Shown here: piece after piece, positions 24,145 through 34,246 of the stretch | Layout of the letters: each line of letters opens with the position of its first letter | Position numbering within the stretch: the first letter of the stretch is position 1 | Assembly: GCA_017538105.1 (NCBI GenBank) | Contig: JAFYJN010000008.1 | Span: forward strand, 1 to 64,000 | Direction of reading: 5' to 3' | Length of the DNA: 64,000 nucleotides | Source: Prevotella sp. | GTDB taxonomy: Bacteria; Bacteroidota; Bacteroidia; Bacteroidales; Bacteroidaceae | Notes under the pieces: model-generated | The model's input: the letters and a program-made list of their open reading frames with translations, nothing else | Told to the model about the DNA's origin: nothing | Databases searched by the model: none | Program-made: the position numbers and the translations under genes

Positions 24145-24753
24145 TTAATAAACGAAATTTTTATCTAATCTTGCTGCCGGGATTATTTGATTATTGTAAT
24201 ACACAAAAGGAATGGAGGCAGGGCAGAACAAGGAATTGAAATGAGGCCAATTGTTGTATTGGTTTCTTGCATAATAAATATACTCAATCTCTTTATTCTT
24301 TCCTGTTGGATGTACAATTTCACCGAACAGATCGGCAAATTCAGCTTTATAGTCGATATTGGATAGCAAAATAAAATCTATTCCTCTTATATTGGAATAT
24401 CCGATGATCCTGTAATTATAATCAAGAATGAACTTATCACGAATCTCTTGTTTTTCTATATGATAGAGGTCTATAACACGTGTAATGTTTTTCTTGTGGA
24501 AATACAATACAAACCCATTGTCTTCGGATTGTTCATCGGAAGTGTGTACGGCATTATCAGCGACTTTCTCAAGATAAAATATCAATGTGTCATTGGTTAT
24601 AGCGAATTCATCAAGAATAAAGCCATTATTTTCATCAACCTCTTCATTGTTGGATACATGAGTCGTTTCTTTATGACAACCAATCAAAAATAGGATCAAG
24701 CAAAAGAAAACGCTAATTAAATGTTTCCGTCTTATATATTTTATTTTCATCAT
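24145..24753 (-). CDS. Small lipoprotein, candidate immunity protein for the RHS toxin
   Basis: The 202-residue protein has a signal peptide with lipobox (LFLIGC) after a basic N-terminus, so it should be a membrane-anchored periplasmic or outer-membrane lipoprotein. I recognise no domain; the body is acidic and rich in Asn, Ile and Tyr. Its start overlaps the 3' end of the RHS gene by 41 bp, the usual position of an immunity gene, and its DNA is as AT-rich as the RHS toxin tip. A lipoprotein immunity factor would guard against a toxin acting outside the cytoplasm, or arriving through the periplasm. All of this is inference from position and composition. Confidence 0.75.
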   Translation of the reverse strand: MMKIKYIRRKHLISVFFCLILFLIGCHKETTHVSNNEEVDENNGFILDEFAITNDTLIFYLEKVADNAVHTSDEQSEDNGFVLYFHKKNITRVIDLYHIEKQEIRDKFILDYNYRIIGYSNIRGIDFILLSNIDYKAEFADLFGEIVHPTGKNKEIEYIYYARNQYNNWPHFNSLFCPASIPFVYYNNQIIPAARLDKNFVY

Positions 24754-27700
24754 AATACTGTATTAAGTTGTTATAAACATCATATATCCTGAAAATAATA
24801 TCAGGATGGCGGCTTGCTGTTAAAAAATCCTCACCGCTAATAGACATAAAGACTAAAGAACCCATATTAGACTGTAAGGTCTCTCGCGAGAGAACATGAG
24901 AATGGTCAAATGTATTAACAATAAAGCCGTATTGTTGCAATGCATATAATATATCTATTGAATTCGATACATCCCTTTCTTTATGCCTTGTCGTTAGTAT
25001 GTTTGTTGAAAATTGACCAATAGTACCTGATATTCTTGCCCATTCTACTTCGGTGTTTCTAATTAACAATCTGAAAAGGATTTCTGATTGTTGTATATCG
25101 TTAACTTGCAAAATAGTACTCCGCTTGCTATTTGAATACAATTTAATAGTTCCCTCTGGAAATTCAGCTATTAGTTTATTAGTTTCTTCTGAATAGACCC
25201 TATCTTTTTTGTTATTTAATCCGACTATTGAAAGAATTTGTTGTCCGATGTTAGTAATCTCATAAAAGTATCCTTTTTGATTATACTTATAGTCCTTTTT
25301 GCCGTTAGGATCAATACGATTCACGGGATCACCTTCGCAATAAGCGAATGGACTAATCTCAGGATTCTTCTCTGCCAAGGAATCCATGGTCGTGAACCGC
25401 CCACCCACGACAGGATCCATCCACCTCGCGCTGAAGTCGTACTCGTCAAGGGGCAGGGTGCGCTCCAGCTCCTTCCCGCCGAACTTGTAGGGCTGCACCG
25501 TGCCTCCCGTGCTCTGCTTGCCGAAGAGCGTGCCGTCGGGGTAGTACTGGTTCCGCTGCTCCACCGTGCCGTCCTGGCTCATCACAATCCGCACGCTGCC
25601 AAGGTGGTCTTTCAGATAGTAGTGGTAGAGGGGCTCGCCGCGCTCGTCGAAGGTGACGTAGCCCTCCTCCGTGAGCAGCATCGACAAAGTGTCGTTGCGG
25701 TATATCACGTTGCCGCAGTAGTCGGTCACCGCCTGCGGGTCGTTCTGGTTGATAGGGGGAAGGATGGGTCCCACGATGCCGCCGCCCATGGGTTCGTTCC
25801 CGCCGATCGTGGAGGCAAGACCGATGGGGCCGCCGGGGTTGAAGGTGGGTATCGTCCAGTATTCCGCCCTGAGCTTGTTTCCCGCCGCGTCGTAGGTGAA
25901 CTTCATCTTCGTGTCGTCGGAAAAGGTTATTTGTCCCGGCAAATTTAGCGAATTATATTCAATTGACGTAATTTCCCGGTTCAAATCTTTCGTCATGTTG
26001 CCGTTTCCGTCGTATTCGTACTCCACGGCGCTGTCCGCCAGGTCCTGGAAGTGGTGCGCCGCGTTGTACGTGGGCTGCGAGGCGACCGCGTCGTCGCACT
26101 TGACCAGGCGGTTGTCGTCGTACTCCATCGTCAGGTCGTCGATGAGTCCCGCGCCGCTGTCCTTCGGGCCTCTCCTCTTGAGCGAGGTGACGTTGCCCAT
26201 CGCGTCGTAGGTGAGGTTCTCGTTGAAGGTCTGCGCGTTGGTGCCCAGCGAGCTGCCCGTGCGGTAGTTGGCAGCCGTGAGCCGCCCCATGCCGTCGTAG
26301 GTGAACCTGTAGCCCCTGTAGTCGGTGACGGAGCTGCCCGTCCACAGCATGGCGCTGACCTTTCCGGACCATTGGGGCGCGGAGGGCGTTATGCCCCACG
26401 ACGTCCCCTCGTAGGCCAGCACTTCGAGGAACCGCTGACCCTGTATCTTCGTCGGCCACGAGCGGACGTTGTAGTCGTAGGAGGTCGTCTCCAGCCCGCC
26501 AGTTACCTTCGCGGCCACACGTCCCATCGCGTCGTAGGTATAGCGTGCGATCATTACGGGCGAACTCCCGTTAACCGAGTGGGTGACGGTGAGTGGTCTG
26601 CCGACATGGTCGTAGGCGTATGTGTACCTTTCCGTGAGCGTCGCTTTCCGTGGTGCGGAGTGTACCAGCTCCCTTTCCACCGGCCTTCCCGTGAAGTCGT
26701 AGCCGGTATATTCACTGTCGTAACCTCCGAGGATGTTCCTGTTGTGCGTCTGTATCAGCCGCTCCCTGGGGTCGTAATAGAATGCCGCGAGGCTATAGAC
26801 CGGCGTGTCCGCCAGCGGCAGCCTCGCCGCAGCCTTTCCGGTAACCAGCCCGTAATGCCATCTAGCCTGTCTGCCTCCGGGCTTGCCCTTCCTGAAGGAC
26901 AAGGAGTCGATGCCTTCCGCGAAAACATAGCTGTCGTAATAGGTGGCGGTGAGAGCCACGGCTGCGGCGAGCGTGACGTTGGACACGGTGTAGCCGAGCA
27001 GCTGGCCCGTTCCCGTGAATGCGCACCTGGGAGCCTGTACGGCATACAACTGCGCGTCTGCCGTTGGCACGTCGTAGGTACACAGGCCCGTGAGGCATTC
27101 CCTCCCCAGCGAATCGTAGGCGTGGAAGGTGCTCTTTCCGAGCGTCCGCTGCACGGCATCCTGCGTGTATGCCACCCGTCCGTCGGTGTCGGCGGCTATC
27201 CTCGTCCATCCCGCCCCGGGTTTCTTCACGCCGCACACCCTGCGCAGGCCGTCGTGGCGGTAGAGGTAGGCGTAGTCATCAAGCGCGGACTGCGGGACGG
27301 TGCCCGACGACGGGTTGCCGCCGATGGCCGGCGGAAGCACGGCACACAGCAGACCGTCGACGGTATAGACATAGTACGTGTCGAGGAAGGTCCTGGAGTT
27401 CCCCGTGCCCAGCACAACCCTGTCGAGCACCGTATTCCCCCTCCTGTCTGTGAACCGCAGGCGCGAACGCCCGTCCTCATCCGCCGTCCTCGCCACGGAG
27501 AGCGTTCCGTCGGGATAGGTGCCCGCCACAGTGATGACGGAACCCTGCTCGGTGACGGTGGCTGCCGTATGCCTGAGGCACGTGAGCGAGTCGGCGCCGT
27601 CCTTGTTCGTCATGTACGCACTGTTGCATGCACGTCCCGCCTGCCGCCATGCCGCCCCCGGACCATACCGGGACACCTCCCTGCCGAGCGGTGCCGCCTC

Positions 27701-28174
27701 GTACAGCAGCAGCGATGACGGGTCGGTGTCGCCGTAGGCGGTGACGGCGGCCGAGCGTACGTCGACAGGCTCCGCGCACATACTGGCAGCAGCCGTCATG
27801 GGCACGTCCTGCCACACGGCTGTCGTACGCCCCCAGGCGTCGTACTGCCACATGGTGAGCAGGTCGCGCCCGTCGGGAGCAGCACCTACCCTCACATGCT
27901 GCGTATCCCTGTCCAGCCCGTCGGGATAGGATACCTCGAGCGTGCCGTCGTCAGGGTTTTCCGACCGTGCGGTGAACACAGCCACGTAGGGGTAGCCCGC
28001 GTACTCCAGCAGCTTGGGCACCGGCACGGTGTCGAGCGTATCGGGCAGATACGGCGTGAGCGGCCCGAAAGGGTCAATCTGTGCGGACGCGTTGAGCGCG
28101 GCGGCGGCAAAGGCCGCCAGGACGGCAGCTTTCCTGCCGTGAATGCTGTTGCCTTTCTTCTCCATAGCCTTCAT
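24713..28174 (-). CDS. RHS repeat protein with C-terminal toxin-like tip
   Basis: This 1153-residue protein has a signal peptide (AAFAAAALNASAQ) and then many YD/RHS repeats (YDAMGRVAAKV, YDGMGRLTAAN). The RHS-associated core is DHLGSVRIVMSQDG, YKFGGKELERTLPLDEYDFS, SARWMDPVVGGRFTTMD and PVNRIDPNGK. The DPNG motif near residue 957 is where the core is expected to be cut by its aspartyl-protease-like activity. The remaining ~195 residues (DNA 24713-25300) are a separate tip encoded by AT-rich DNA. The tip has EVEW, then HSH, then SGED, an order of Glu, His-x-His and Ser-x-x-Asp that resembles a JAB/JAMM metallopeptidase with longer spacing. It follows the first RHS gene after 3 bp and overlaps the candidate immunity gene. 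Confidence 0.9.
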   Translation of the reverse strand: MKAMEKKGNSIHGRKAAVLAAFAAAALNASAQIDPFGPLTPYLPDTLDTVPVPKLLEYAGYPYVAVFTARSENPDDGTLEVSYPDGLDRDTQHVRVGAAPDGRDLLTMWQYDAWGRTTAVWQDVPMTAAASMCAEPVDVRSAAVTAYGDTDPSSLLLYEAAPLGREVSRYGPGAAWRQAGRACNSAYMTNKDGADSLTCLRHTAATVTEQGSVITVAGTYPDGTLSVARTADEDGRSRLRFTDRRGNTVLDRVVLGTGNSRTFLDTYYVYTVDGLLCAVLPPAIGGNPSSGTVPQSALDDYAYLYRHDGLRRVCGVKKPGAGWTRIAADTDGRVAYTQDAVQRTLGKSTFHAYDSLGRECLTGLCTYDVPTADAQLYAVQAPRCAFTGTGQLLGYTVSNVTLAAAVALTATYYDSYVFAEGIDSLSFRKGKPGGRQARWHYGLVTGKAAARLPLADTPVYSLAAFYYDPRERLIQTHNRNILGGYDSEYTGYDFTGRPVERELVHSAPRKATLTERYTYAYDHVGRPLTVTHSVNGSSPVMIARYTYDAMGRVAAKVTGGLETTSYDYNVRSWPTKIQGQRFLEVLAYEGTSWGITPSAPQWSGKVSAMLWTGSSVTDYRGYRFTYDGMGRLTAANYRTGSSLGTNAQTFNENLTYDAMGNVTSLKRRGPKDSGAGLIDDLTMEYDDNRLVKCDDAVASQPTYNAAHHFQDLADSAVEYEYDGNGNMTKDLNREITSIEYNSLNLPGQITFSDDTKMKFTYDAAGNKLRAEYWTIPTFNPGGPIGLASTIGGNEPMGGGIVGPILPPINQNDPQAVTDYCGNVIYRNDTLSMLLTEEGYVTFDERGEPLYHYYLKDHLGSVRIVMSQDGTVEQRNQYYPDGTLFGKQSTGGTVQPYKFGGKELERTLPLDEYDFSARWMDPVVGGRFTTMDSLAEKNPEISPFAYCEGDPVNRIDPNGKKDYKYNQKGYFYEITNIGQQILSIVGLNNKKDRVYSEETNKLIAEFPEGTIKLYSNSKRSTILQVNDIQQSEILFRLLIRNTEVEWARISGTIGQFSTNILTTRHKERDVSNSIDILYALQQYGFIVNTFDHSHVLSRETLQSNMGSLVFMSISGEDFLTASRHPDIIFRIYDVYNNLIQYYDENKIYKTETFN

Positions 28175-28177
28175 GTG

Positions 28178-31100
28178 TCAGTATTGGTAGTCGTACCTTT
28201 TTAGTATATGACGGATCTTCTCATCCCCTGTTCCCTGGCCGTCATCGGCATCCTCGTAGAAGTAGCTCTCACGGAGCCGCCCGAAAGTGTCGTACTTGTA
28301 CAGCGTGTTGTTACCGTCGGGATCCATCTCACCGACGAGGCGCAGCCCGTCATAGAGGAACAGCCTGACCAGCACGCGGGGTAAGTACTGCTGCTGCATC
28401 AGGCCGAAGTATCGGAACGGGTAGAAATCGTCCTCCCTCATCATTTCGAAATCGTCGAGACTGACGGCGGCGTTGGCCTTCTCCGCCGTAACGTTGTCCA
28501 CACGCGCCATGATGCGCTGCCCCTTCTTGCCCCAGAAGAGTACCGTGCGCAGCCCGTCGCGCGTCAGTTCCTGCGGGTTGCCGTAGGCATCGGTGGCATG
28601 TACGGTGTAGCAGTGCCTGACGTACTGTCCCCCGTATGACGTGGCCACGTCCTGCAGGTAGGGTATGCCCGTGGCGGTGGTTGCGTAGGTGTTGGTCACC
28701 GTTCTTGTCAGCCCGCCGTCCTGCTCCGTCATCGTCACCGGGGGGTTGAGCAGGTGCCGCTGCACCATCCACTGGCAGCCTGCCACGTCGGCGGGGTATG
28801 CGTAGGTGACGGTGTGCGTCGTTCCGTCGCTCATGGGCGACGACTCGGAGGAGACCAGCCGGGAAGAGTTGTAAGCGACTGACTTCGATATCGTGAAGGG
28901 CGTGGCGATCCCCGGGGTGTAGGTGCTCTCTGTAACCAGTGTGGGGAGATACGAGCACGTCCTGGTCTTGGTGAGCCATCCCGCTCCAGCCGCCGAGGGG
29001 TTGGGATCCGTCGGGAAAATGACAGCCTCCTGATAGGCGGTGACCATGTCTGCGTGAGCTGTCGGAGAGTAGGTGATGCGCTGCTCGTAGAGCTTCCTCC
29101 CAAGGGAGTCGAAGCGTTCCACGGACTGCAGCCTGCCGCGTTCATGCGACCGGCTGGTGAACGGGAAGGCCGCAGAGCTGCCCACGGGTGTCTGGTAGTA
29201 CGCGGCGGTGTCAGGGTGCGCCACGCCATGGATGTCGGTGCCGTAGTTCGAGAAGCGGTAGTGTGTGAAGCCGTGGGAGGTGCCGCTTCCGTCGAGGGTC
29301 TCCTCGATGACCGATGAGTAGCCCACGTCGGGCGTGTTGTGCGACGTGGTGTGCATACGGTAGCCCGTCGCAGACTTGAGTTCCAGATAAGCCCCTCCGG
29401 CGGTGTACGTCAGCTCGTATGGCGGCGTACCCGCCGATATGCCGCTGCTGTTCTGACCGCCGATGGTGTCGGAATAGTGGTATTTCCTGCAAACGGATCG
29501 GTTGCCGTACCTGTCACTCTCGTTTATCTCCTTCACCCGCAGGCCGCCGACGTGTGAAATGCCGGGAACGGGAACGACCGTGGCGTGGTCTGCTCCCACT
29601 GTGGCGGAGCAGTCGTTGAGTTCATAGGTAAACTGGGTTACCGCCCCCGTGGGCCACGTAATCCTCGTGAGTGTCTCGGCCTTGGTGTACGTCAGGTTGG
29701 GCATGACCACGCCGAAGGTGGGGGCGGGTGTGCCGGACAGCGGGTAACTCTCACCTGTATAGTATCCCCACGAGTCGGTCTTGGCCATGACGCAGTTCAC
29801 AGGCATCTGTGCGCCGTAGTCAAACGAATAGCAAGGCATGTTGTCCGCAGATGTATTCTCGGGAATGGCCGGCAGGTGCGTCTGCGGCGTATATGTCTTG
29901 GCTGGAATCCCCTCCCTGAACTCCATGCGCTCGAGTTTGTACTTGCCGAAACGCCTGATCTTGAAGAACACAGACCACGGCTTGTCGCCAAGCTTGCTCT
30001 CGAAGGCCATGCGGTAGAGGTACTTGTACTTAAGCGTCGAGCTGATCCTCTCCCTAATGACGGCATCGGATTCGCCTGGGAGCGAGCCTACGCCCATGAA
30101 CACGAAGAACTGATTGACGGGATCCTCCTGCTCGATGAAGTACACGGGGCCGCGAATTTGCCCTCTCTGCGACCAGTACAGCGACTCGCCGAAAAGGTCG
30201 CCGTAGTCGGAGACACTCTCGTAGTCGAGGGTTACCTTCTCGCTGTCTGTCTCGATTGTCTTCAAGAGGACGGGGAAGAGCAGGAAGCCCGTATAGCCTT
30301 TCCTTCCGGTGTTGTAGGGGTCGGTAATGTAGGTGTATGCACCGTAGAGGTTGACGTACTGCGGGACATACCTGATGTCGCACATCAGGCAGTCAGTGTC
30401 GTAGGTCAGCGTGATGATCCTGTTAGAAGGCGTGGTTATCTTGGTGAGCTTCCACGTAGTGGGGATGAGGTCGCTGTTATTACGGTTGTAATAGGGAATG
30501 CTGAACTCCGTGGCCTGGATCCCGCCGAACTCGTACCTGCAGCCGTCTGGGGTGACGAGGGTGAACTTGTTGAAGAAGCGGTTGTTGCGGATGTTTCCCG
30601 TCCAGTTGTTCGTGTTGATCCTCGTGCGTATCTGCTGCAGACCGATGAAGCCCTCGCCTTCTGAAGGATTGAACTCCACCTTGATGTCGTCGTCGGAGAC
30701 CACCGTCCATCCTCCCTGTGCGTTGAGGTAGAAGTTGCCCGTATAGCCGCAGAAGTCGAAGGCGAACTCGTCGGCAGTCAGCTCATAGTGCCCGAAGTCG
30801 TCGAGGAAAGCACCGCCCGTATGCGCAGCGAACTGGGTATCGGTGATGCCCGCCATCTCCGTGGCATGGCCGTAGAACCCCCTCGCCACGCCGTTGGAGT
30901 TCATCTTCTCGTCGGGCTCACAGCGCACGGTGCGCGTAATCTGCCCTCCTGCCCGCAACGTCCATCCGACACCCAGGGAGCCGGGCTGCTGGTGCGGCCT
31001 GACGGAGGCGAGGTGATAGGAGATGGAGACGGGCATGCCGTAGGCTCCCGTCTTGATTTCGTGAATGGGTATGTTGATCTCGGGAACGCCGGTGAAAAGA

Positions 31101-31243
31101 CTCACGGGTACGGAACCGTATGTGCCCAGGTGCGCCGCATCGGGAGCCTGGATGTTCTCCACGGGCATCAACTGGCCGGAGGCCGGCAATGTGGCTGCTA
31201 TGGCGGCTATCACAGCAAGTAAAATCTTCGTTTTCTTCATCAT
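28178..31243 (-). CDS. RHS-type protein, N-terminal partner
   Basis: The 1021-residue exported protein (signal peptide LLAVIAAIAATLPASGQ) carries the N-terminal module common to Bacteroidota RHS proteins, including GMPVSISYHLASVRPHQQPG and LGVGWTLRAGGQITRTV. It ends with a single YD repeat (LYKYDTFGRLRESYFYED) and a final DYQY. It lacks the RHS core and toxin tip, which the next gene supplies 3 bp downstream. The two products probably act together as a split shell, analogous to two-part RHS or TcB/TcC systems; the comparison is structural inference. Codon use is GC-rich relative to the flanking genes. Confidence 0.85.
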   Translation of the reverse strand: MMKKTKILLAVIAAIAATLPASGQLMPVENIQAPDAAHLGTYGSVPVSLFTGVPEINIPIHEIKTGAYGMPVSISYHLASVRPHQQPGSLGVGWTLRAGGQITRTVRCEPDEKMNSNGVARGFYGHATEMAGITDTQFAAHTGGAFLDDFGHYELTADEFAFDFCGYTGNFYLNAQGGWTVVSDDDIKVEFNPSEGEGFIGLQQIRTRINTNNWTGNIRNNRFFNKFTLVTPDGCRYEFGGIQATEFSIPYYNRNNSDLIPTTWKLTKITTPSNRIITLTYDTDCLMCDIRYVPQYVNLYGAYTYITDPYNTGRKGYTGFLLFPVLLKTIETDSEKVTLDYESVSDYGDLFGESLYWSQRGQIRGPVYFIEQEDPVNQFFVFMGVGSLPGESDAVIRERISSTLKYKYLYRMAFESKLGDKPWSVFFKIRRFGKYKLERMEFREGIPAKTYTPQTHLPAIPENTSADNMPCYSFDYGAQMPVNCVMAKTDSWGYYTGESYPLSGTPAPTFGVVMPNLTYTKAETLTRITWPTGAVTQFTYELNDCSATVGADHATVVPVPGISHVGGLRVKEINESDRYGNRSVCRKYHYSDTIGGQNSSGISAGTPPYELTYTAGGAYLELKSATGYRMHTTSHNTPDVGYSSVIEETLDGSGTSHGFTHYRFSNYGTDIHGVAHPDTAAYYQTPVGSSAAFPFTSRSHERGRLQSVERFDSLGRKLYEQRITYSPTAHADMVTAYQEAVIFPTDPNPSAAGAGWLTKTRTCSYLPTLVTESTYTPGIATPFTISKSVAYNSSRLVSSESSPMSDGTTHTVTYAYPADVAGCQWMVQRHLLNPPVTMTEQDGGLTRTVTNTYATTATGIPYLQDVATSYGGQYVRHCYTVHATDAYGNPQELTRDGLRTVLFWGKKGQRIMARVDNVTAEKANAAVSLDDFEMMREDDFYPFRYFGLMQQQYLPRVLVRLFLYDGLRLVGEMDPDGNNTLYKYDTFGRLRESYFYEDADDGQGTGDEKIRHILKRYDYQY

Positions 31244-31309
31244 GTTGGATAATAATGTTTAGGGTTTAGGGTAGAGTGTTTAGTGTTCTGACTCGTCGCT
31301 TGTCTCTCG

Positions 31310-32530
31310 TCACTTGACCGTTATCTTCGCCGTCTCTTTCCGGCCGTCTGCCCATATCGTGAGGGTGAACACGCCGCGCGTGCAGCGTGAGAGGTCGACA
31401 ACGGAGGTGTGCTGCCCGGCGGAGAGAATGGCTTCGGGCAGCAGCCAGACGGTCTTGCCGTCGGAGGTGAAGATGGCGGCGGCGAAGGAGGCATTGCGGG
31501 AGAGATACCATGTGAGCTGTCCGGAAAGACCGCCGCCGTAGGAGGTGAGGGAATAGGAGGTGAGCGGGGAACCGCCTGGGGAAAGCGGGCCGGAGCCCTC
31601 CCCGCCTCGGGCAAGCAAAAATGTGCCGCCGTTGACGCTTGATCCGCCACCTGTTGACAAACCGGCAACATTTTCACGCAGCCGTTCGTTCTCGGGATCG
31701 TAGGCCAATGTCTCCTGCTCTCGCGGAGAAAGGTAGAAGGCCTCGGTGGCGGAATCATCACCGTAGGCCTCCGTGGTGACGGTGAGCACGGGATAGCGGT
31801 AGCCTCCGGCGAAGAAATGATAGGTGTCGGTGGTGCGGAGGAGCCTGTCGCCCTGCATCCGTCCATGGACGCTGTCGGCCGTGAAGGGAGGCAGGCTGTC
31901 GAGCAGTGCCTCCATGGCGGGGCGCGTATATACGGGCAGCAGGTCGGCTCCCTCGCGGCGCACCACGTGCAGGCGCAGCACGTGGCGCAGGGTGTCGCCG
32001 CCGGGGGTGACCATCGTGCCGGATGCATCGGCCTTGACGGTGGTGTGGCCGAAGGTGCGGCAGTAGGTGCGCTCGCAGTACTGCGAGGTGCCGTGGAAGG
32101 GGGCGGAGAGGCTGTCGCCGTAGGCGAAGGGGTAGCGCAGCAGTGTCTCGGGCATGGTGTATCGTATGAGCCACTGGTTGTTCTCCGTCCCCGGGGAGAG
32201 AAGGGTGTCGCCGCGCAGCAGGGTGTAGCGGCGGGTGCGGCGTGCGATGGCCATGAGCGTATCGGTGGTATCGGAGGGTAGCAGATACTCTACCTTCAGC
32301 TTTCCGTCCATCTCGTGCAGGTCGGAGAAGTCCCACATGCGCCCGCGCCCTGCCTCGCCCACGTCGGGAGGTGCCACCTGCACCTCATTCAGCAGGTCGC
32401 CCTCACGCGGCGCGTTGGCCGGAGAGGTGAGCACCTGCGCTGAGACCGATTCAGAAACAATCATCAGTATTACAATTATGGAAACGTTCGTTTTTACGAA
32501 TCTGTTTATGTGTTTACCTTTCTGTCGCAT
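31310..32530 (-). CDS. Secreted protein with type-9-secretion-like C-terminus
   Basis: The 406-residue protein has a signal peptide (VILMIVSESVSAQ) after a long basic N-terminus. Its middle is Thr/Arg-rich, with no domain I know, and contains a Gly/Ser-rich linker (LSTGGGSSVNGGTFLLARGG). The C-terminus (QHTSVVDLSRCTRGVFTLTI, ending KETAKITVK) resembles a type-9-secretion sorting domain. It lies directly upstream of the two RHS genes on the same strand, 66 bp away, and has the same GC-rich composition. It may therefore be an accessory surface factor for the RHS pair; that is inference. Confidence 0.8.
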   Translation of the reverse strand: MRQKGKHINRFVKTNVSIIVILMIVSESVSAQVLTSPANAPREGDLLNEVQVAPPDVGEAGRGRMWDFSDLHEMDGKLKVEYLLPSDTTDTLMAIARRTRRYTLLRGDTLLSPGTENNQWLIRYTMPETLLRYPFAYGDSLSAPFHGTSQYCERTYCRTFGHTTVKADASGTMVTPGGDTLRHVLRLHVVRREGADLLPVYTRPAMEALLDSLPPFTADSVHGRMQGDRLLRTTDTYHFFAGGYRYPVLTVTTEAYGDDSATEAFYLSPREQETLAYDPENERLRENVAGLSTGGGSSVNGGTFLLARGGEGSGPLSPGGSPLTSYSLTSYGGGLSGQLTWYLSRNASFAAAIFTSDGKTVWLLPEAILSAGQHTSVVDLSRCTRGVFTLTIWADGRKETAKITVK

Positions 32531-32536
32531 TGATTT

Positions 32537-32998
32537 CTATTCTCCAGTTTGCTTAATGGTTATGCTTTTTTGATCCTCTTCGTAGTATCCCATGACCGAA
32601 AAACGGAATTCTCGTTTTTTACCTGAATTATTTTCTGTAGCTGTCAATTCTATTTCCTGATCACTTACCTTCTTTATTTTCAACCAGTCAGTCTGTATAT
32701 ATGGATAGGTTTTTGTATGCTCGCCTCCATATTCAAAATCATTACCTGTTATATATTCTACACCGGGGTTCATCGTGTTGTTTATATACAATGACATTTC
32801 CCTGTTGCCATTTTGTCTAAGTATGTGGATTCCTCCTGTTGAAGGGAATTGGTAGGATGCAGGGAAAAGAGGGGTCGTGTCATCTTCTCCCTGACAGGAA
32901 ATGACAAAGAATATGGACATGGCACAGAGACTGCTCAAAATATGGTTCTGGAAGTAAAAAAAGGATATTGCGTTGTAATGGCGTTGTCGTATTTTCAT
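32537..32998 (-). CDS. Lipoprotein with BACON-like domain
   Basis: The 153-residue lipoprotein has a lipobox in FFVISCQG. The folded part has the pattern of a BACON/Ig-like module: DWLKIKKVSDQEIELTATEN, then SGKKREFRFSVMGYYE and the closing KSITIKQTGE. BACON domains occur in Bacteroidota surface proteins and are thought to mediate carbohydrate or mucin contact. A later in-frame ATG (MSIFFVISCQ) would still leave the lipobox but a very short signal. Its stop is 6 bp from the start of the next gene, so the two are probably co-transcribed. Confidence 0.75.
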   Translation of the reverse strand: MKIRQRHYNAISFFYFQNHILSSLCAMSIFFVISCQGEDDTTPLFPASYQFPSTGGIHILRQNGNREMSLYINNTMNPGVEYITGNDFEYGGEHTKTYPYIQTDWLKIKKVSDQEIELTATENNSGKKREFRFSVMGYYEEDQKSITIKQTGE

Positions 32999-33052
32999 AA
33001 GATAGTGAAACAGATTTCTTTAAGTTAAATACTAACGATATATGAAATGAAG

Positions 33053-34246
33053 CTAAGGATGTATACAGAAGAAATGGAATTCATGGTTGTATTTTTTGGG
33101 GGCTGTCGTCAAGAATTGAGGATTAAGCAGGTGTTCCATATAATAGCCATTTGGGACGTTCCATTGACCCATATTGACATGAATCATATCATAATTGTCA
33201 TAGTACTTTTTATATCCATCAATGATGTATGCGTGACCTTTTCCTCTTTCCCATAGTCCGAGAAAATCAGATTTTGTCCTTGAACAAGCCAACACAATCC
33301 CATTTGGATAATCTCTTAGGGTCGACCTGATATACTGAGGACCTTCTTCCATAATCATAGTGCCGTTTCTGGTGAATAGAGGAACAGCATCTTCTGTATC
33401 AGCAGAACTGCCATCATCACCATAGTCCATGTCAACAGCGATTCCTATAAGATGAATAAACCTTGCGACAGTATCGCAGATTTCAGGGTAATAATATTCA
33501 TAATCAATATTTTTGAAAAGAATCATATTATCATAATTCAAGGGAAGTCCATTGAAATTATTTGTATGCCGGGTCACAGTAAACGCTTGAGCGGTTGCCA
33601 CAGCAACACATCCCGCATAATTACTGGGGCAATATCTTGCAAAAACTCCTTGTTGTTTCCATTCTACCTGAACTTTCGGCAAGACCTCTTCTTCCAACTC
33701 CCAAAGTGGATTTGGTTGCCAAGTGACAGGTTCATGGCCATCTGGGGCATTCCAACATTCAATGTCAATCATTCGTGACAGAATTAAATTCATCGGGTTC
33801 TCGTCAATGTCCCTATTAACAAAACCTGAAAATGTGAAATTATTATCTTCCAATTCTGCAACTACTTCTGGAGCTGTTGCATATGCTGGAATTAGAATTG
33901 TTCCATCGCCAATGTTGGCGGCATATACAAGTGTATCAGGAAAATTGATAGAGTCCTCATAACTTATAAGTGAGGCATTTATAGCATCACGACGACGAAA
34001 AACTTGTATTTCCGGGGAATTGTTATTGCCGCTGATATGGCGCTTGTTCCTTTTGATAGAAGCATTGTGTTCGCAATAATGACTAACAATATTGTTTACT
34101 TCATCTAATGATCTAACGCTTATCTCTTCTATTATTGGATTTGAAGTGTTGTTTACTTGGAAGGGTAAACTATTCTCTAATCCATCATTACAAGATATAC
34201 TCGTCAACAGTATGGCAAATAAGATAAGAATGTGAATTCGTTTCAT
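33053..34246 (-). CDS. C10 family (streptopain-like) cysteine peptidase, lipoprotein
   Basis: The 397-residue protein has a lipobox Cys19 (LLTSISC), a pro-region of roughly 170 residues, and a C10 catalytic domain. The oxyanion Gln and pocket are in VEWKQQGVFARYCP, the nucleophile Cys213 is in NYAGCVAVATAQAF, the partner His338 is in GKGHAYIIDGY, and the closing motif is HVNMGQWNVPNGYY. This is the family of streptopain (SpeB) and Prevotella interpain A. Unlike those secreted enzymes this one should stay membrane-anchored. Many family members have the variant HAW; here it is HAY. Location beside the RHS cluster may be incidental. Confidence 0.85.
   Translation of the reverse strand: MKRIHILILFAILLTSISCNDGLENSLPFQVNNTSNPIIEEISVRSLDEVNNIVSHYCEHNASIKRNKRHISGNNNSPEIQVFRRRDAINASLISYEDSINFPDTLVYAANIGDGTILIPAYATAPEVVAELEDNNFTFSGFVNRDIDENPMNLILSRMIDIECWNAPDGHEPVTWQPNPLWELEEEVLPKVQVEWKQQGVFARYCPSNYAGCVAVATAQAFTVTRHTNNFNGLPLNYDNMILFKNIDYEYYYPEICDTVARFIHLIGIAVDMDYGDDGSSADTEDAVPLFTRNGTMIMEEGPQYIRSTLRDYPNGIVLACSRTKSDFLGLWERGKGHAYIIDGYKKYYDNYDMIHVNMGQWNVPNGYYMEHLLNPQFLTTAPKKYNHEFHFFCIHP

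Follow-up and report, generated by a model that had tools for sequence, protein, structure and literature searches.

The closest described relative of the system studied here is Tox-JAB-1. In the passages of Zhang et al. 2012 (PMC3482391) that deal with this clade, it appears as the tip of Sec-exported RHS proteins, found only in Bacteroidetes and accompanied by a lipoprotein partner, Imm65, which is the sole apparent lipoprotein among the immunity proteins collected there. The same passages propose that the toxin is a nuclease, because the clade is without the residues that line the ubiquitin-tail tunnel. A sister family, Tox-JAB-2, is listed with a citation among nuclease effectors in the corresponding part of a 2022 paper (PMC9635880). 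Our limited literature search returned no experimental study of Tox-JAB-1, and one may exist elsewhere.

Here we describe a locus of this kind from a Prevotella genome (assembly GCA_017538105.1, contig JAFYJN010000008.1). We use "the window" for the whole stretch of 64,000 nucleotides that was analysed. A first-pass annotation of the window had read the C-terminal end of one RHS protein as an exchangeable JAB/JAMM-like tip and had considered a Sec-exported RHS protein with such a tip not to be a standard described effector. The second half of that claim is not supported: the 2012 account (PMC3482391, in the passages cited above) describes Sec-exported Tox-JAB-1 RHS proteins with lipoprotein immunity.

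Organization of the locus

The features of the locus are collected in Table 1. Within the RHS protein, Pfam recognizes DUF6443 (PF20041, E = 2e-20) and RHS repeats (PF05593, E = 4.1e-9), and the NCBIfam model of the Rhs core, TIGR03696, matches residues 884-958 (E = 1.1e-11). The Sec-type signal sequence at the N-terminus was assigned by a simple rule only.

Table 1. Features of the RHS locus, in window coordinates
Feature	Position	Strand	Description
Candidate immunity lipoprotein (P0002)	24145..24753	minus	202 aa, with lipobox LIGC; 41-nt overlap of its start with the tip gene
RHS protein, open reading frame	24713-28174	minus	1153 codons, 1153 aa
C-terminal tip, Toxin-JAB1 domain	24713..25297	minus	residues 960-1153 (194 residues)
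Junction motif PVNRIDPNGK, end of the RHS-associated core	25298..25327	minus	residues 950-959
GC-rich RHS core with N-terminal Sec-type signal peptide	25298..28174	minus	DUF6443, RHS repeats, signal-peptide rule, GC 0.629
Secreted partner protein	28178..31243	minus	1021 aa; YD/RHS repeat close to the end; separated from the RHS start by 3 nt
Secreted protein heading the GC-rich gene run	31310..32530	minus	406 aa; weak resemblance to a type-9 sorting tail, E 0.17, below cut-off

Of the eight other genomes that contain a match to the secreted 1021-aa protein, five have it upstream of, and on the same strand as, a core homolog, and only the match in G005 spans most of the protein. We presume that the division between this protein and the RHS protein resembles that of two-part RHS shells. 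Directly upstream of the run, at 32537-34246, there are two AT-rich genes (GC 0.38): the product of one has a near-threshold BACON domain, and the other encodes a lipoprotein-like C10 peptidase.

Composition and exchange of the tip

Composition changes abruptly along the RHS gene, as the first-pass annotation had stated: GC and GC at third codon positions are 0.629 and 0.811 in the core and drop to 0.308 and 0.272 in the tip. The best single change point gains 106 units of likelihood, where 300 codon shuffles give 7.0 at most. It falls at 25369, in the core some 70 nt ahead of the junction, rather than at 25310 where the shift had been placed; likewise, the range 24713-25310 given for the AT-rich tip takes in the final core codons, the tip proper running from 25297 to 24713. 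The RHS run as a whole (25300-32530) has a GC content of 0.613, and the window outside 24145-32530 has 0.503. The candidate immunity gene (24145-24753), at 0.320, is as AT-rich as the tip, and the tip and the adjoining lipoprotein gene therefore look like one cassette.

To assess whether the tip is exchangeable, as had been proposed, we compared the window with related genomes. One genome of the same genus (G019) contains four loci (L067-L070) whose core ends are 77-85% identical to that of the window and are followed by different tips, so that the relatives do not share one tip. No two of these four tips are related, and none is related to the window tip (best BLASTP match among the five, E 0.22), and the JAB profile, which includes the window tip itself, matches only the window tip among them. 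At the four junctions GC falls from 0.58-0.63 to 0.31-0.39. In blocks of 30 nt, DNA identity between the window and these loci is 0.59-1.00 as far as about 25400; between 25400 and 25310 it is 0.47-0.77, and past 25310 it is 0.23-0.57. A conserved core with differing tips is a feature of polymorphic toxin systems, and the locus shows it.

The own genome has further RHS cores near the ends of other contigs (L071, L072, L088); the tips of L072 and L088 have no Toxin-JAB1 match, and L071 leaves its contig at the junction.

Among 200 genomes of the genus, 4 encode Toxin-JAB1, as do 36 among 393 of the order, with the own genome counted both times; 33 of the 49 places listed were treated as loci. 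A regular expression for D-P/A-x-G found a junction motif upstream in the same open reading frame at 27 of the 33, one of these matches (L063) being spurious; a variant junction was seen by eye in L063 and L040. The motif is absent from the reading frame at five of the 33 loci (L038, L041, L044, L046, L062). One JAB-1 tip of the same genus (L003:469-1077) has a C-terminal part unlike that of the others and is followed by an open reading frame without a signal sequence; it is possibly a decayed or recombined cassette.

Identity of the tip

The only Pfam family that matches the tip is Toxin-JAB1 (PF15659; 41.5 bits, E 2e-10, cut-off 21), with an alignment that covers profile positions 2-78 of 87; searches with the single tip sequence against NCBIfam, PADLOC and PDB gave nothing useful. 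With a hidden Markov model built on the 31 other tips, the window tip scores 53.5 bits across 184 positions of the profile, and 500 shuffled window tips reach at most 6.6 bits with the same leave-one-out model. All 32 aligned tips match PF15659, and four candidate metal ligands, E1044, H1091, H1093 and D1116 (E85, H132, H134 and D157 in tip numbering), are invariant in 32 of 32. The window tip is nevertheless only 15-23% identical to the 31 others, and a Pro that follows HxH in 28 of the 32 is replaced by Val (HSHV, not HSHP).

The first-pass annotation had based its JAB/JAMM-like assignment on the succession of EVEW, HSH and SGED, which lie at residues 1042, 1091 and 1113. The assignment agrees with the profile scores and the invariant residues, and the order and D1116 stand. 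The Ser is less certain: the near-invariant Ser of the family aligns to S1102 (S143 in tip numbering, in LQSN) and not to that of SGED (S1113), while D1116 is invariant, which leaves the SxxD assignment uncertain. The loop between HxH and the acidic residue is long, as had been noted, but because the distances separating HxH, Ser and Asp differ among the aligned JAB-1 tips, it is not a special expansion. By itself the motif order provides modest evidence, since E-x(20,80)-HxH-x(5,40)-SxxD also occurs in 137 of 20000 shuffled tips. The idea that an unrelated AT-rich tip shows the motif by chance can draw on this count, but a Pfam score about twice the cut-off and a leave-one-out score far above every shuffle make it extremely improbable.

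The residues tabulated for the family in PMC3482391 (NxxxE, HxH, S and D, in the part that treats this clade) are found in the window tip as N81...E85 (NTEVE), H132/H134 and D157, with the position of Ser ambiguous. The setting also agrees with that description: the domain is C-terminal on a Bacteroidales RHS protein, with a signal peptide assigned by rule only. We conclude that the window tip is almost certainly a Toxin-JAB1 RHS tip, and it is probably a metal-dependent toxin.

Comparison of the family profile with PDB sequences points weakly to JAMM proteins. The 32-tip profile matched 12 PDB sequences at E 0.1-1.5, each score being weak alone, and 11 of the 12 are JAMM/MPN proteins: AfJAMM (1oi0, 1r5x), RadC (2qlc), Mov34/MPN/PAD-1 (2kcq) and seven rows of BRCC36; the best match, 2kks, carries the label uncharacterized. 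HSHP and S..D are superposed in the three printed alignments. A profile of six closer tips had no match in PDB. AlphaFold models of the window tip and a related tip (pLDDT 38 and 49) are of too low quality for a metal site to be recognized, and a fold search with the second gave no significant match, RadC 2qlc being the top Foldseek entry at E 0.31.

The adjoining lipoprotein and the partners of other tips

On the grounds of adjacency, overlap with the tip gene and a signal sequence with a lipobox, we regard P0002 as a candidate immunity protein, and it probably protects its producer. It has no match in Pfam or NCBIfam, and a search of 60 genomes, the own genome included, recovered only P0002 itself.

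An adjacent open reading frame is present at 30 of the 33 JAB-1 loci, and its product looks exported in 29 of 30 cases by a hydropathy rule and in 28 of 30 by a stricter signal-peptide rule. Ten of 29 such partners form one group (phmmer, E-values for the 29-sequence set), and with a profile of this group three more outscore all shuffles. P0002 falls outside the ten-member group (hhalign probability 0.2%) and has no sequence link to the sampled partners.

To see how far these features are specific to JAB-1, we hand-picked 70 loci from places in 60 genomes of the order, of which 57 non-JAB RHS tips passed the filters and 55 have an adjacent open reading frame. The limits were slightly unlike in the two sets: at least 60 aa within -90 to +60 nt for JAB-1 tips, and at least 80 aa within -90 to +100 nt for controls. 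By either rule the partner looks exported in 42/55 controls, and 27/48 (hydropathy) or 25/48 (strict) of the window's own open reading frames pass as well. The difference between JAB and non-JAB partners gives a Fisher p of 0.016 by hydropathy and 0.073 by the strict rule, with the slightly unlike limits just mentioned. With so many among the controls, exported partners are common for such RHS tips and do not mark out JAB-1. The mean drop in GC at the junction is 0.087 over the 57 control tips, compared to about 0.32 in the window.

Pfam families over cut-off were found in 10 of the 55 control tips: Tox-MPTase3 in three, CHAP, OmpA and Ntox23 in two each, and phospholipase A2 in one. Eight of these ten belong to metallopeptidase, peptidoglycan or lipid families; for Ntox23 the relevant passage of PMC3482391 gives no activity. 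No Pfam nuclease family was detected up to E 0.01 in the 55 tips, 45 of which have no match over cut-off and could conceal nucleases. The passage on Tox-MPTases in PMC3482391 compares them with a desumoylating enzyme; because of this relationship these tips need not act in the envelope, and therefore not all eight need do so.

A possible mechanism and its alternatives

The reading that we tentatively favor, at close to even chances, is that the tip is a zinc-dependent JAMM metallopeptidase acting in the envelope of a neighboring cell, with the lipoprotein guarding the producer. The metal binding, catalysis, release, delivery, target and immunity that we infer would combine as follows. An AT-rich cassette, consisting of the Toxin-JAB1 domain and the overlapping lipoprotein gene, would have been swapped onto a GC-rich, Sec-exported RHS protein. 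The RHS shell would be exported, perhaps together with the product of the partner gene at 28178-31243, and would shield the tip. The own genome encodes SprA and eight proteins with type-9 sorting tails over cut-off; the RHS protein itself ends in the tip. The tip may then be freed near the DPNGK junction and reach a neighboring Bacteroidales cell, where the putative Zn-JAMM site (E1044, H1091, H1093, D1116) would hydrolyze a peptide bond of the envelope, either in a peptidoglycan stem or in an envelope protein. Kin would be spared because P0002 sits in the same compartment. The envelope would be an unusual target for the JAMM fold.

Our inclination towards an envelope peptidase stems from the 28 of 30 JAB-1 partners that look exported under the strict rule, together with the eight of ten readable control tips; an envelope target suits a lipoprotein partner better than a cytoplasmic nuclease does. 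Against it, exported partners are not specific to JAB-1, being frequent among the controls and among the window's open reading frames, and 45/55 control tips are unreadable by Pfam. P0002 cannot be connected by sequence with the other partners, and the window tip is without the usual Pro after HxH. The two papers cited above also count against it. The same cassette could carry a cytoplasmic nuclease, as Zhang et al. argued for the Tox-JAB clades by analogy with RadC (PMC3482391, in the part on these clades), and the appearance of the sister clade among nuclease effectors in the passage of PMC9635880 agrees with this. Our own searches add RadC 2qlc at E 0.18 among the PDB profile matches, its first place in the non-significant Foldseek result for the pLDDT-49 model, and a Pfam RadC match (0.0036) in one of the 32 tips. 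But canonical JAMM peptidases score equally with RadC in the same profile search, no nuclease family is seen among the ten readable of the 55 control tips, and partners that look exported would have no contact with a nuclease in the cytoplasm, except by acting at entry. We consider a nuclease a real possibility, somewhat on the unlikely side.

It could also be argued that the JAB domain does not kill, being a peptidase for processing or release, or inactive, in a protein with an adhesive or other surface role. The Val that replaces Pro after HxH, the odd position of the Ser and the low identity to other tips would be in keeping with such a role. However, the domain is the most C-terminal one, retains all four candidate ligands, and sits where relatives carry other tips, with its own adjacent lipoprotein gene; a non-killing domain is accordingly improbable. 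Returning to the envelope peptidase, one may go further and imagine that Bacteroidales RHS tips are mostly envelope hydrolases with exported partners, that Tox-JAB-1 is a periplasmic JAMM peptidase, and that the P0002 family is distinct from Imm65, a generalization that we hold to be doubtful though conceivable. If the argument from compartments is right, the dependence of toxicity on export would distinguish a nuclease from a peptidase across an entire Bacteroidales toxin family.

Relation to known systems

The locus shares with Tox-JAB-1 (PF15659) the position of the domain as an RHS C-terminal tip, its occurrence in Bacteroidales, the Sec signal, the NxxxE/HxH/S/D residues and the adjacent lipoprotein gene, and it departs from the other 31 Toxin-JAB1 tips in its low sequence identity (15-23%), in HSHV for HSHP, and in a family Ser that lies outside SGED. 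P0002 resembles Imm65 in being a small protein encoded directly after the tip, with a signal peptide and lipobox, a comparison made by description; it differs in having no Pfam match and a probability of 0.2% with the ten-member partner family of other JAB-1 tips. The likeness to JAMM/MPN metallopeptidases (AfJAMM, BRCC36) and RadC consists of the HxH(P)...S..D order in the printed alignments of the family profile, at sequence E-values of 0.1-1.5 only, whereas the window tip is delivered as part of an RHS protein. Other Bacteroidales RHS tips (Tox-MPTase3, CHAP, OmpA, PLA2, Ntox23) have the same core junction, on average an AT-richer tip, and commonly an exported neighbor (42/55); compared to these, the window tip has an unrelated domain and a larger drop in GC than their mean. 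Hence, the window tip is a divergent new member of a toxin family that was described by sequence in 2012, and an ordinary representative of a weapon system that is already known.
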